From the IMG/VR virus record IMGVR_UViG_3300025655_000100, positions 1-38,875 of that record: 38,875 nucleotides of DNA, one strand, 5' to 3'. The stretch's first letter is position 1, and every line of letters begins with the position of its first letter. Source of the stretch: a virus. Position numbers and translations under genes: made by a program. Below, piece after piece: positions 4,554 through 26,442 of the stretch. The notes beneath the pieces were generated by a model. The model was not told the DNA's origin. It saw nothing but the letters and a program-made list of their open reading frames with translations, and made no database searches.

Positions 4554-4750
4554 TAATTTACGAACCAAAAAACAGCATTAAGGTTTATACTCCAAAAGGT
4601 ATAGCAAGAATATGGCTTGTAACTGAATATGGTATGGAAACACAAAAACTGTTTACTTGTATAACATCATCAGGTCAAGTATGGGAATTTACAAATGATC
4701 AAATTACAGTTCAAGATAACCCTACAGTAACTGGATTTGATGATGATTGA
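4550..4750 (+). CDS. Small beta-rich protein of unknown function (66 aa)
   Basis: The ATG at 4550 overlaps the previous stop (ATGA), which makes it a better start than an in-frame ATG 36 bases earlier that would run through the preceding mini-gene. The product MIIYEPKNSIKVYTPKG... alternates hydrophobic and polar residues, suggesting a small five-strand beta barrel, and ends in an acidic FDDD. Its stop overlaps the TTG start of the next gene. It may be an accessory subunit of that protein, but no family was recognised. Confidence 0.5.
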   Translation: MIIYEPKNSIKVYTPKGIARIWLVTEYGMETQKLFTCITSSGQVWEFTNDQITVQDNPTVTGFDDD

Positions 4751-5511
4751 AAGTATATTTTAACGCAAACAACAAAGCAACAAGACAGGCACTGATAGAT
4801 TGTGGAGTCAAAAATGTCATGGTTGCTCACAAATATACATGGGCTAGTATAGATTCATACAGAGATAATTTTGATTCTGTTTTTGTTGTTGCAGGAGTAA
4901 AAGGAGATCAAGACAAATATTTGAATTGGTTAATTAAAAATAAAGAAAAATATGATTACGCTACTCAATTTGATGTATTTTATGACATGAACGCAACAAT
5001 GAAGAATCTGGAAAAAGAAAGAGAAATGGGAATAGATTGGACACTTCCAGTGTTACAGCAGAATTTTCTACAGCATTTGTCAAAATTAAAACCAAAGAAA
5101 GATGACTATGTATGTTTGGGGGAGATAAAAGGAAAAATAGAAATGGAAGATCAAATAAGAAAACTACCACCATTACAATATCATGGACTAGCAAAAGGTA
5201 ACTTTATACAAAGAAACAGAATGTTCAAATCAATAGACACAAGTGCATGGATATCTGCAGCAGTATCAAAGAAAACAGAAATATGGTTAAACAACAACAC
5301 AATATCAATGTTTTTTGGAAACAAAGGAAAAGGCATGGTATCACAACTACAATTCTATTTAGAAAAATACAAAGACAATATGGAAAAAGTTGGAATAACA
5401 AAACAACAGATACTTGATAATGATTACAATGCATTACTTAAATTTCCAATAGCAACATTGTTTATGCCTATGTGTAAAAGTTTTAACATATATGATGATA
5501 ATTTCAAATAA
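4747..5511 (+). CDS. TGT/DpdA-like transglycosylase family protein
   Basis: The protein has 254 residues and starts with TTG inside the previous stop (TTGA). Recognisable features are an N-terminal 'KNVMVAHKY' strand, a 'YDYATQFDVFYD' strand (70-80), 'YVCLGEIKG' (121-129), 'YHGLAKG' (145-151) and 'SIDTSAW' (163-169). The last three resemble the conserved barrel blocks (vgLGG, HGxG, SxDStsW) of phage proteins in the tRNA-guanine transglycosylase superfamily. Within that superfamily DpdA exchanges guanine in DNA for a 7-deazaguanine. If correct, the virus may modify its DNA with a base derived from preQ0, which archaeal hosts make for archaeosine. The assignment rests on short motifs. A related TIM-barrel protein of unknown activity is the alternative. 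Confidence 0.45.
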   Translation: MKVYFNANNKATRQALIDCGVKNVMVAHKYTWASIDSYRDNFDSVFVVAGVKGDQDKYLNWLIKNKEKYDYATQFDVFYDMNATMKNLEKEREMGIDWTLPVLQQNFLQHLSKLKPKKDDYVCLGEIKGKIEMEDQIRKLPPLQYHGLAKGNFIQRNRMFKSIDTSAWISAAVSKKTEIWLNNNTISMFFGNKGKGMVSQLQFYLEKYKDNMEKVGITKQQILDNDYNALLKFPIATLFMPMCKSFNIYDDNFK

Positions 5512-5520
5512 CTTTAAATA
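5512..5520 (+). promoter_or_regulatory. TATA box for the putative ncRNA
   Basis: CTTTAAATA directly follows the TAA stop of the upstream gene. About 26 bases downstream is the start of the structured region at 5541. No protein start uses this box: the next gene has its own box at 5641. Confidence 0.55.
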
Positions 5521-5540
5521 AAACTATCACATATGCAATA

Positions 5541-5631
5541 CGACTGTCAGGGATTACCCTAATACGGTAGCCCTCTTAAGTCCGTTCTTCCAGGTCGGAA
5601 GTGAGTGAACACGTAAGATTCACTCCTTTCC
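5541..5631 (+). ncRNA. Putative three-stem structured RNA upstream of the terminase genes
   Basis: About 90 bases carry strong nested complementarity and no reading frame. Stem 1: GACT 5542-5545 pairs AGTC 5579-5582, AGGG 5549-5552 pairs CCCT 5571-5574, and TACC 5555-5558 pairs GGTA 5566-5569, with a 7-base loop. Stem 2: CTTCC 5587-5591 pairs GGAAG 5597-5601. Stem 3: GAGTGAA 5603-5609 pairs TTCACTC 5619-5625. GGAAG can instead extend stem 3 by pairing TTTCC 5627-5631, so two alternative folds exist. The element is GC-richer than its flanks and lies between its own TATA box (5512) and that of the next gene (5641). No known RNA family was recognised. Because it sits just before the terminase genes, a packaging-RNA role is a speculation. 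Confidence 0.6.
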
Positions 5632-5640
5632 TTTGGGAAA

Positions 5641-5650
5641 TATTTATATA
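5641..5650 (+). promoter_or_regulatory. TATA box of the terminase operon
   Basis: TATTTATATA is centred about 28 bases before the ATG at 5674, implying a leaderless mRNA that covers the candidate small and large terminase genes. Confidence 0.5.
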
Positions 5651-5673
5651 ATTTGTTTTATTAATTTTCATAT

Positions 5674-6195
5674 ATGCCTGATGATATTAAGTTAAAAGAG
5701 AATAACGGCAAACTAGAAGCGAGTATCGATAAAAGAAAATCTATTAGTTCATTTAACGCAGCAAAGCATTTGAGATCAGCAGAACTTCCTGCACTTTGTA
5801 ACGATTGTATTTACAGATCCATTGATACAGGGGGGAATGGAAAATGCCCAAAATATGAAGCAGATGCAACGTGTGCAATACGAGCAGATATACAAAAAGT
5901 AATAGGAGATATGGACACAAGAGATCCAGAACAACTAAAAGGCATACTTGATTATCTAGTAAAACTATACACAGAACAGATATTTGTAGCACTAGGAGAA
6001 TCCAAGATGGACGGAAACATACCTGATAGAAACACAAACGCACAATTAAACTCACTACTAAAAATTATCAACACTATGATAGAATTATCAGGTAAGGTAG
6101 AGATTAAAGAAACACAGGTATTTGACGAGAAGAATATAATGAAAAGCATCTTTAAAGAAATGACAGCAAAGAAATCTATGATGGAGAATGGCTAG
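5674..6195 (+). CDS. Candidate small terminase subunit (TerS-like position) with cysteine motif
   Basis: The protein has 173 residues and its 3' end overlaps the large terminase by 8 bases, the usual place of the DNA-recognition small subunit. The N-terminal third has CNDCIYRS ... GKCPKYEADATC (C42, C45, C58, C67 approximately), a likely zinc site. The rest is helical: a long amphipathic stretch after 'DPEQLKGILDYLVKLY' and 'NTNAQLNSLLKIINTMIELSG' could form the oligomerising coiled region. Family similarity is not visible by eye, so the call rests on position, size and domain plan. Confidence 0.5.
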   Translation: MPDDIKLKENNGKLEASIDKRKSISSFNAAKHLRSAELPALCNDCIYRSIDTGGNGKCPKYEADATCAIRADIQKVIGDMDTRDPEQLKGILDYLVKLYTEQIFVALGESKMDGNIPDRNTNAQLNSLLKIINTMIELSGKVEIKETQVFDEKNIMKSIFKEMTAKKSMMENG

Positions 6196-7585
6196 ACCAA
6201 CAGAAGATGATATTAAGAAACGAGAAGAGTTTGTAAGAACATTTGTAGAATGTGCTCAGACTCCATCAAAGTTTTCAGAAGTATTTCTTAATCATGGATT
6301 ATTTGAATATAACAAAAGATATGTTAATTGTCTAGATAGATTCATAGTATATCGTAGTGGTAGACAGGTAGGTAAAACCATGTCAACTGCTGTCAAAGCC
6401 ATACATTTTGCTTTCTTTGCTCCTATGCTTTTAGAGACAGTTGATAAGGAATGTACTATTTTGATTGTTGCACCTACCCAAAACCAGGCAAGTATTATGT
6501 ACGATAGAATCAGAGCATTGATTATGGGAAGTGATATTCTTGAAGATTACATTGTAAGAAACACACAAACTGAAATGTGGTTAAGATGGTTAGATGATAG
6601 AGGAACTACAAAGATAGTTACTCGTGCAACAGGTGAATCAGGTACAGGACTTAGAGGTTATTCTCCACACGTTATCATAGTTGACGAATGTTCGTTTGTA
6701 AAAGAAGATATACTTACAGCATTATTCCCTGCAGGTTCTGCAACTAAAGCAAGAGTATGGCTGACATCAACTCCGTTTTCAATGATGGGTTATTTTTACA
6801 ATGCTTGTAATAACTCTAAAACAATTAACGGAGAACCTGTATCAAGTGATGGACAATGGACACAGTTTCATGTAAGATCAACCGACAACCCATTGATTGC
6901 AAATGATCCAGAGTATATGAAATTCCTGGAAAACCAAACAAGAGAAAGTTATGCACTTGAAGTGTTAGGTGAATTCCTGGAAATTGGTAACGCATTGATA
7001 CCACAAAATCTTTTGCAAGATGCAATGGTAGAGAGTCACCCAGATGGTAGCACTAGATATTATGTTGGTGTTGACGTTGCAAGAAGTGGTATGGACGAAA
7101 CAGTATTTACTGTAATTGGATTAGATGAAAAAGATACAGTTCATGTAGTTTGGCAAGAAAAAGAGGGTCAATCAAACATTGTAGATGTAGCAGGTAAGAC
7201 ACAAGAGTTAGCAGAAAAGTTTCACGCAGAAATGGTTTACGTTGATGAAACAGGATTGGGAGCAGGACTATATGATTTGCTACAAGAACGTGCTGTAGTT
7301 GTAAGAGGCATAGTATTTTCACTTAAAGAAAAAGAATCTATATACAAGAATCTTAGAGTGTTGTTTGAACAGAAACGCATTAAGATAGGGGGGAGACAAG
7401 AATTAGCAAAACAACTAGGAATGTTAAGAAGAGAATACACAGAAACAAAACTCATGAAGATAAAATCAGAATACAAAGATGATCATGCAGATTCACTAGC
7501 AATAGCCTGTCAAGCAGTAGCCACAGGAGATCAATGGCACGTAGTTAAGATGTCACAAAAGTTACATGACAGTCTATTCGGTTAA
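6188..7585 (+). CDS. terL: Terminase large subunit (ATPase-nuclease)
   Basis: This 465-residue protein shows both domains of a DNA-packaging motor. The ATPase domain has Walker A SGRQVGKT (57-64), Walker B VIIVDE (162-167) and the coupling motif LTSTP (192-196). The RNase H-like nuclease has D296 in GVDVARSGMDET, D353 in VYVDETGLGAG and D435 in DDHADSLAIA, the three expected metal ligands. Length is typical. It packages viral DNA into proheads through the portal and cuts concatemers. The start ATG overlaps the preceding gene, indicating translational coupling. All key residues are intact. Confidence 0.93.
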   Translation: MARPTEDDIKKREEFVRTFVECAQTPSKFSEVFLNHGLFEYNKRYVNCLDRFIVYRSGRQVGKTMSTAVKAIHFAFFAPMLLETVDKECTILIVAPTQNQASIMYDRIRALIMGSDILEDYIVRNTQTEMWLRWLDDRGTTKIVTRATGESGTGLRGYSPHVIIVDECSFVKEDILTALFPAGSATKARVWLTSTPFSMMGYFYNACNNSKTINGEPVSSDGQWTQFHVRSTDNPLIANDPEYMKFLENQTRESYALEVLGEFLEIGNALIPQNLLQDAMVESHPDGSTRYYVGVDVARSGMDETVFTVIGLDEKDTVHVVWQEKEGQSNIVDVAGKTQELAEKFHAEMVYVDETGLGAGLYDLLQERAVVVRGIVFSLKEKESIYKNLRVLFEQKRIKIGGRQELAKQLGMLRREYTETKLMKIKSEYKDDHADSLAIACQAVATGDQWHVVKMSQKLHDSLFG

Positions 7586-25816: not shown

Positions 25817-26335
25817 TTATAAATCTTTGCTGGTTTTGACTTTCAGAAATTTTGGTTTGTTGCGTTTTGTATATTGAAGTATGTGTTGTTTATTAGTTCT
25901 GTAATAGTTTTGGTAGGAATATATAACATTGCTAAACCTATTATTACTGCTATCAATCTTTACTTCATCAGGCATAGCCCTAGCGAATGGCGTTAAACCA
26001 ATATCAGGTATGTTAGGCATAGGTAAATTACCAATAGCATTATATGATTTGTGATTGTCTACTTTATTATACCTGTATTTATATTCCTTGTTTAGTTCTT
26101 CAACGAGTGATAGTAACCATTTGTAATTGCCTAGACTATCTCTAATCCATTTATTACATGGGTGGTTTTTATGTGTCATCTTATATGGTATCTCATAATT
26201 TACTTGTTTGTTAGGCATAAGATGATGAGTAGTGCATACCATTTGTGCTGATTCTAGTATCATCTTTACAACGTGCTTATCACAATGCCACCTAGCACAC
26301 TCTTTGGGAGAGAGAGATAAAGCAAAAATATTCAT
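25817..26335 (-). CDS. Conserved phage protein with 'CDKHVVKMILE' signature (172 aa)
   Basis: Opening MNIFALSLSPKECARWHCDKHVVKMILESAQMV, then HPCNKWIRDSLGNYKWLLSLVEELNKEYKYRYNK with an H-rich stretch, matches a family common in tailed phages. Members are sometimes compared with pyrimidine-dimer glycosylases because of their helical fold and conserved His/Glu residues. That enzymatic role is not shown by anything visible here. The ATG overlaps the upstream mini-gene. All conserved blocks are present. Confidence 0.55.
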   Translation of the reverse strand: MNIFALSLSPKECARWHCDKHVVKMILESAQMVCTTHHLMPNKQVNYEIPYKMTHKNHPCNKWIRDSLGNYKWLLSLVEELNKEYKYRYNKVDNHKSYNAIGNLPMPNIPDIGLTPFARAMPDEVKIDSSNNRFSNVIYSYQNYYRTNKQHILQYTKRNKPKFLKVKTSKDL

Positions 26336-26442
26336 ATCTCTAACTCCAATACTTCCATTATGAAATCGTCAGGGTGTATATTCCTATCACGACAAAAGTC
26401 TATGAACTCTTGCTGTAATTTCTCTCTATCTTCTTCGGTCAT
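26332..26442 (-). CDS. Small acidic helical protein (36 aa)
   Basis: GGAGGTGGAAAT before the ATG and an ATGA overlap with the next gene. MTEEDREKLQQEFIDFCRD then HPDDFIMEVLELEI: two short acidic helices. Probably an expressed mini-protein; function unknown. Confidence 0.45.
   Translation of the reverse strand: MTEEDREKLQQEFIDFCRDRNIHPDDFIMEVLELEI

Follow-up and report, generated by a model that had tools for sequence, protein, structure and literature searches.

A short spacer directly before the terminase genes of an archaeal tailed virus (positions 5512-5640) folds into consecutive hairpins, which raises the question of whether an RNA gene of its own stands there and, if so, what its product does for the virus. 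The window, by which we mean the whole stretch of DNA analysed, comprises the 38,875 bases of an IMG/VR virus record, a metagenomic contig. An initial annotation had read the spacer as a free-standing structured RNA with its own TATA box and had offered a packaging RNA, a host-targeting sRNA or a switch as candidate functions. Judged from sequence comparison, it is nearly certain that positions 5542-5640 represent a small structured RNA of a new family.

The locus and its neighbouring genes

The virus of the window carries the archaeal replication genes MCM and RadA together with the tailed-virus head genes TerL and prohead protease. These genes, with the AmoC homologues of related carriers, bear out its assignment to archaeal tailed viruses. 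The RNA stretch is placed between an open reading frame (ORF) at 4747-5511 and a TerS-like ORF (Table 1) for which no informative Pfam or PHROG match was obtained. The spacer had been described as non-coding and as lying between two separate TATA boxes, and both statements hold: no ORF of at least 60 amino acids occurs within 5512-5640, and the boxes TTTAAAT and TTTATAT are found on either side. The search for tRNA and tmRNA genes returned none. The second TATA box probably serves the terminase operon, with a predicted start near 5672 that would leave the TerS mRNA nearly leaderless.

Table 1. Features of the RNA gene and the adjoining terminase genes in the window
Feature	Position	Strand	Remarks
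TATA box of the RNA gene, TTTAAAT	5513-5519	+	29 nt before the first paired base
Module A	5542-5582	+	covariance model R1, window 5539-5585, 61.1 bits
Closing stem P1 of module A	5542-5545 with 5579-5582	+	two-sided changes
Conserved internal loop of module A	GUC 5546-5548 / CUUA 5575-5578	+	unpaired, constant
Inner helix P2/P3 of module A	5549-5552 with 5571-5574; 5554-5558 with 5566-5570	+	
Linker CGUU of module B	5583-5586	+	CGU without variation in 21 homologues, the U after it nearly so
Hairpin B1, 5 bp, loop ARGUC (AGGUC here, 5592-5596)	5587-5601	+	
Hairpin B2, 7 bp, loop CACGUAAGA (5610-5618)	5603-5625	+	
Small hairpin B3 (UUUCC/GGAAA)	5627-5640	+	short hairpin predicted here in most of 22 B-bearing loci
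TATA box of the terminase operon, TTTATAT	5643-5649	+	sequence; spacing inferred from that of the RNA-gene TATA box
Probable small terminase subunit (TerS)	5674-6195	+	precedes TerL; family common to seven related genomes; outside RNA
Large terminase subunit (TerL), ATPase and nuclease domain	6188-7585	+	PF03237, PF17289; phrog_2, 1.5e-44; outside RNA

Fold and covariation of modules A and B

The spacer folds with a free energy of -33.7 kcal/mol (z = -2.79), a value not matched by any of 200 dinucleotide shuffles. The three stems first proposed were recovered at their positions, namely a closing stem with its hairpin at 5542-5582 and hairpins at 5587-5601 and 5603-5625, and a fourth, small hairpin at 5627-5640 is additional to them. 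The RNA gene as delimited here has approximately 99 nt (5542-5640) and consists of two parts, module A (5542-5582) and module B (5583-5640).

Homologues of module A were sought in IMG/VR with a pattern of its constant core, CAGGGATTACC-N(2-32)-GTAGCCCTCT, which matched 61 stretches; a relaxed pattern matched 60, several of them new, and both searches together gave approximately 50 distinct versions. Six loci were retrieved by means of the TerL of the window, and the spacer of close relatives is altered in sequence with its structure retained. Two-sided changes were found at all seven P1 pairs and at two inner pairs of module A (47 sequences), and P1 varies freely in sequence while pairing in nearly all of them, as in GGUU/AACC, GACU/AGUC, GGCUU/AAGCC and AGUC/GACU. 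The inner core is near-constant, which is partly owed to search patterns that require it. Among the sequences from the relaxed search, column pair 12-75 changes from G-C to A-U in five and pair 11-76 from A-U to G-U in two, and a later scan yielded U-A at pair 11-76 in three further loci (L355, L357 and L361). The apical loop ranges from a few to approximately 30 bases and may hold an extra hairpin.

For module B (20 distinct sequences), 99.6% of alignment cells are paired and two-sided changes occur at 10 of 12 pairs, giving a covariation score that was reached by no shuffle. Hairpin B1 is paired in 100% of cells with two-sided changes at four of its five pairs, and hairpin B2 in 99.3% with such changes at six of seven; the B2 loop of the homologues is CACGUAAGA or near to it. 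The check for compensatory changes proposed with the initial annotation was run, and these changes proved strong in the helices across homologues. The suggestion that GGAAG (5597-5601) might pair alternatively with TTTCC (5627-5631) held in part. The alternative is real for the window sequence, where it is the computed minimum, but it is not conserved, given that relatives (L004, L005, L006 and L166) form local hairpins rather than the alternative pairing in free folds and that B1 is paired in every alignment cell.

The last hairpin, B3, is the probable 3' end of the RNA or its terminator. In four loci (L130, L139, L152 and L166) an inverted repeat, GGGTGCGAAGCACCC or near to it, lies just 3' of module B and is followed by an A/T-rich stretch; it is possibly a terminator or a repeat element. 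A further complex hairpin, module D, stands between A and B in L088, L132 and L153 (TACCCTACAATAACGTTGCAACGTG...GGGTAG in L088). A kissing contact between the A loop UCUUA and the B2 loop UAAGA, possible in approximately 16 of 21 B sequences, was also considered and rejected, as A stays unchanged when the B2 base changes.

Promoter and predicted transcript start

Counted from the first P1 base, a TATA-like heptamer begins at exactly -29 in 35 of 49 homologous loci and between -33 and -27 in 48 of them, as against 2-12 of 49 in control windows. Given that the spacing of the archaeal TATA box determines where transcription starts, the conserved spacing indicates that the RNA most likely begins at P1, position 5542 in the window, and its fixity points to an independent transcript. 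The host RNA polymerase would transcribe it during infection from the promoter at 5513-5519. Taken as tests for an independent viral ncRNA family, compensatory base changes were found in A, B and the hairpin C described below, and a promoter of its own was found at fixed spacing, so that the description as a free-standing structured RNA with its own TATA box is upheld. At L131, L136, L138, L174, L195 and other loci, module B is separated from A and has a TATA box to itself, approximately 29-30 nt before a small closing hairpin of its own; the existence of such stand-alone B elements indicates that A and B are two RNAs that are fused in the virus of the window.

Hairpin C

In loci without B, A usually has a third covarying hairpin, C, on its 3' side. 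Among its 35 distinct sequences, 95.8% of cells are paired, and the inner pair 14-23 occurs as U-A (20 sequences) or C-G (15) and is never mismatched. The C core AAAG-NRYGU-NGAU-ACRUC-AU inside a free stem was found in 67 IMG/VR stretches. Hairpin C also occurs without A, including in a third virus lineage, where approximately 93 nt separate it from a downstream homologue of G017:33016 (probable protease/capsid region). In L353, L366, L400, L346, L349 and others C stands without module A, in some of them with a preceding TATA box and a small closing hairpin. A C-like match in the window itself (26312-26342, E 0.012) has the stem only and no loop, and was taken as chance.

Distribution and genomic place

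Module A is present in one copy per genome in all 48 virus records, and module B in 23 of the 48, always adjoining A. No match at gathering score was obtained for the whole window against all families of Rfam 15 (cmscan), nor was any at the curated threshold when the element and its homologues were searched at a relaxed E-value. The exact core pattern was absent from 84,980 GTDB cellular genomes apart from one match in Desulfotomaculum, which lacks the flanking UCUUA motif, and we therefore regard the RNA as a viral trait. The A core pattern also had no match in the GenBank phage set. Mimicry of a host RNA with the same core was considered and rejected, the core being absent from the GTDB species genomes except for the flank-less Desulfotomaculum match.

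Among 23 contigs of at least 40 kb retrieved by TerL alone, module A is present in 14 and absent from nine, which are linear contigs, so that absence may reflect incompleteness or divergence beyond the model; five of the nine (57-68 kb) were negative in a relaxed search too. Absence or loss of structure in close relatives had been named as evidence against the element; the closest relatives do retain the structure, whereas some more distant ones are without the RNA.

The position of the RNA varies as well. The window and six related genomes (G012, G022, G023, G034, G039 and G047) have the terminase, the portal and many other genes in common and differ in where A is located. It stands directly before TerS/TerL in the clade of the window, beside the portal gene (directly before or divergent from it) in other groups, and near MCM/RadA or a CobT-like gene in others again, and in most large contigs of the same terminase lineage it is approximately 15-30 kb away from TerL. 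In a second virus group, A precedes TerS by 0.1-1.5 kb and the TerL is very different from that of the window; the only relative of this TerL in the phage set is that of a Nitrososphaera viennensis provirus (Pro-Nvie1), in which no module A was found. Absence from nine of 23 same-terminase contigs and the variable genomic place together suggest that the RNA is accessory and probably acts in trans.

In several groups, group IV among them, the gene closely downstream is often on the opposite strand; in several loci it is a conserved zinc-protein gene 66-109 nt downstream of the RNA. Many small paired-CxxC proteins (families 4, 6, 16, 17 and others) are encoded near A in many loci, with several copies per genome; they are also found in genomes without the RNA.

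Host and putative partner

AmoC, a marker of ammonia-oxidizing archaea, has homologues in six A-bearing records (G004, G007, G012, G022, G033 and G057), three of the six matches having one internal stop codon. AmoC thus points to ammonia-oxidizing archaea as the hosts of the RNA carriers, and kinship with the AmoC carriers suggests the same host group for the virus of the window. Ammonia-oxidizing archaea rank among the ocean's most abundant cells, and their tailed viruses are, to our knowledge, known almost only from metagenomes.

Fixed loops on freely varying stems imply that some partner reads the loops. We give an even chance to a joint reading in which the RNA gene is the accessory member of a new family with its own promoter, and its constant loops bind a host factor, so that the RNA serves as a decoy or regulator in trans. 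The constant loops GUC/CUUA, ARGUC and CACGUAAGA (or NGAU of C elsewhere) would be binding surfaces for a partner common to many viruses; a host protein or RNP is the most likely candidate, and infection would be favoured by the RNA acting in trans as decoy or regulator. A host partner is favoured because the surrounding virus genes differ, some relatives are without the RNA, and no protein family tracks it; the presence of an accessory, mobile RNA in distant virus groups with a common host group likewise favours both a host partner and action in trans. A viral partner that was itself accessory would be expected to track the RNA, and none was found in a co-occurrence analysis of protein families in 13 large genomes, an analysis that is blind to a partner among core proteins present in all of them. 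A viral partner among these core proteins is possible, and the recurrent place before terminase, portal or capsid operons hints at a function connected with late genes and not with the host.

Viral decoy RNAs of eukaryotic DNA viruses, such as adenovirus VA RNA and EBV EBER, are short, folded, independently promoted and non-coding, with constant binding loops. The likeness to the archaeal-virus RNA is one of working only, and no kinship is claimed; they belong to another domain of life and another polymerase. RNA anti-CRISPRs (Racrs) mimic CRISPR repeats (PMC10651486); they are similar in being small, accessory viral RNAs aimed at a host system, as the present RNA would be, but are single repeats whereas the archaeal-virus RNA has multiple hairpins.

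Alternative functions

The short invariant loops on variable stems also resemble a seed region, as would be expected if the constant loops paired with host or viral mRNAs or with another RNA, in the manner of bacterial phage sRNAs. The host-targeting sRNA suggested initially is a possible function. A conserved complementary site is, however, absent from 13 large viral genomes, and the invariance of the loops across distant viruses exceeds the need of most antisense seeds; we regard antisense action as unlikely. The phi29 pRNA (174/120 nt), which is essential to a five-copy p16 motor, invites another comparison, since the prohead RNAs of Salasmaviridae are small structured viral RNAs (PMC11476376) and the window RNA adjoins packaging genes. 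A functional analogue of pRNA in packaging or head assembly, or a regulator linked to late genes, would agree with the place of the RNA directly before TerS/TerL in the window clade, with its recurrence 0.1-1.5 kb from TerS beside a very different TerL, with its position next to the portal gene, either directly preceding it or divergent from it, in further groups, and with that of C some 93 nt before the G017:33016 homologue in the third lineage. Unlike phi29 with its p16-type motor, the window virus has a TerS-like protein and a TerL with a nuclease domain (PF03237, PF17289), and its RNA of approximately 99 nt gives no match to the pRNA family (cmscan, Rfam 15). This archaeal-virus RNA is also missing from nine of 23 same-motor contigs of at least 40 kb (which may be incomplete), is separated from TerL by 15-30 kb in the majority of the lineage's large contigs and is found elsewhere in the neighbourhood of MCM/RadA or a CobT-like gene. 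The ordinary TerS/TerL motor and the same-terminase relatives without the RNA weaken the link to packaging and late genes. We consider this alternative quite improbable. Packaging as a general function, one of the original suggestions, is thus unlikely; from the recurrent place beside head genes, a weaker connection with late genes is conceivable.

A promoter-proximal element that often stands upstream of late operons could also be a cis-acting 5' leader or switch of the operon that follows. A second TATA box separates the RNA from TerS, however, the downstream gene differs in identity between virus groups, and a same-strand gene directly downstream is not found in all homologues, the next gene running on the opposite strand in several groups. 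The switch proposed earlier, understood as the leader of the next gene, is for this last reason unlikely, and we accord a cis-acting role very little probability. Single-stranded DNA can form hairpins too, and the element changes loci and lies near the GC-skew minimum in two genomes, as might a recombination, replication or packaging site acting at the DNA level. The fixed TATA spacing and the G-U pairs in the stems speak against such a site, as does the inconsistent skew position over the genomes, for which a link to a replication origin through GC skew was rejected; a DNA-level element is accordingly highly improbable in our estimation.

A possible wider RNA class

Small RNAs of a wider class may be built around hairpin C. 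The hairpin in L158 has a form intermediate between C and B2, which suggests that the two may share an origin. More tentatively, and with somewhat less than even confidence, we propose a modular RNA class of viruses of ammonia-oxidizing archaea, extending over at least three lineages, in which a CGUA(A)GA hairpin (C/B2) would form the core, A, B1 and other domains would be fused to it or split from it, and the RNAs would target a conserved host machine in trans. Our searches of Rfam and of open-access papers revealed no conserved RNA family of archaeal viruses that acts in trans, and the modular class, if real, would be the first such family known for these viruses. The fixed loops, predicted 5' end, single copy and covariation support of the RNA could potentially be exploited as a handle on the host machine that these viruses target. 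A relative of the window (G047) carries a second, separate C-type hairpin (L217:6155-6188) approximately 28 kb from its A-B RNA, with a TATA box upstream.
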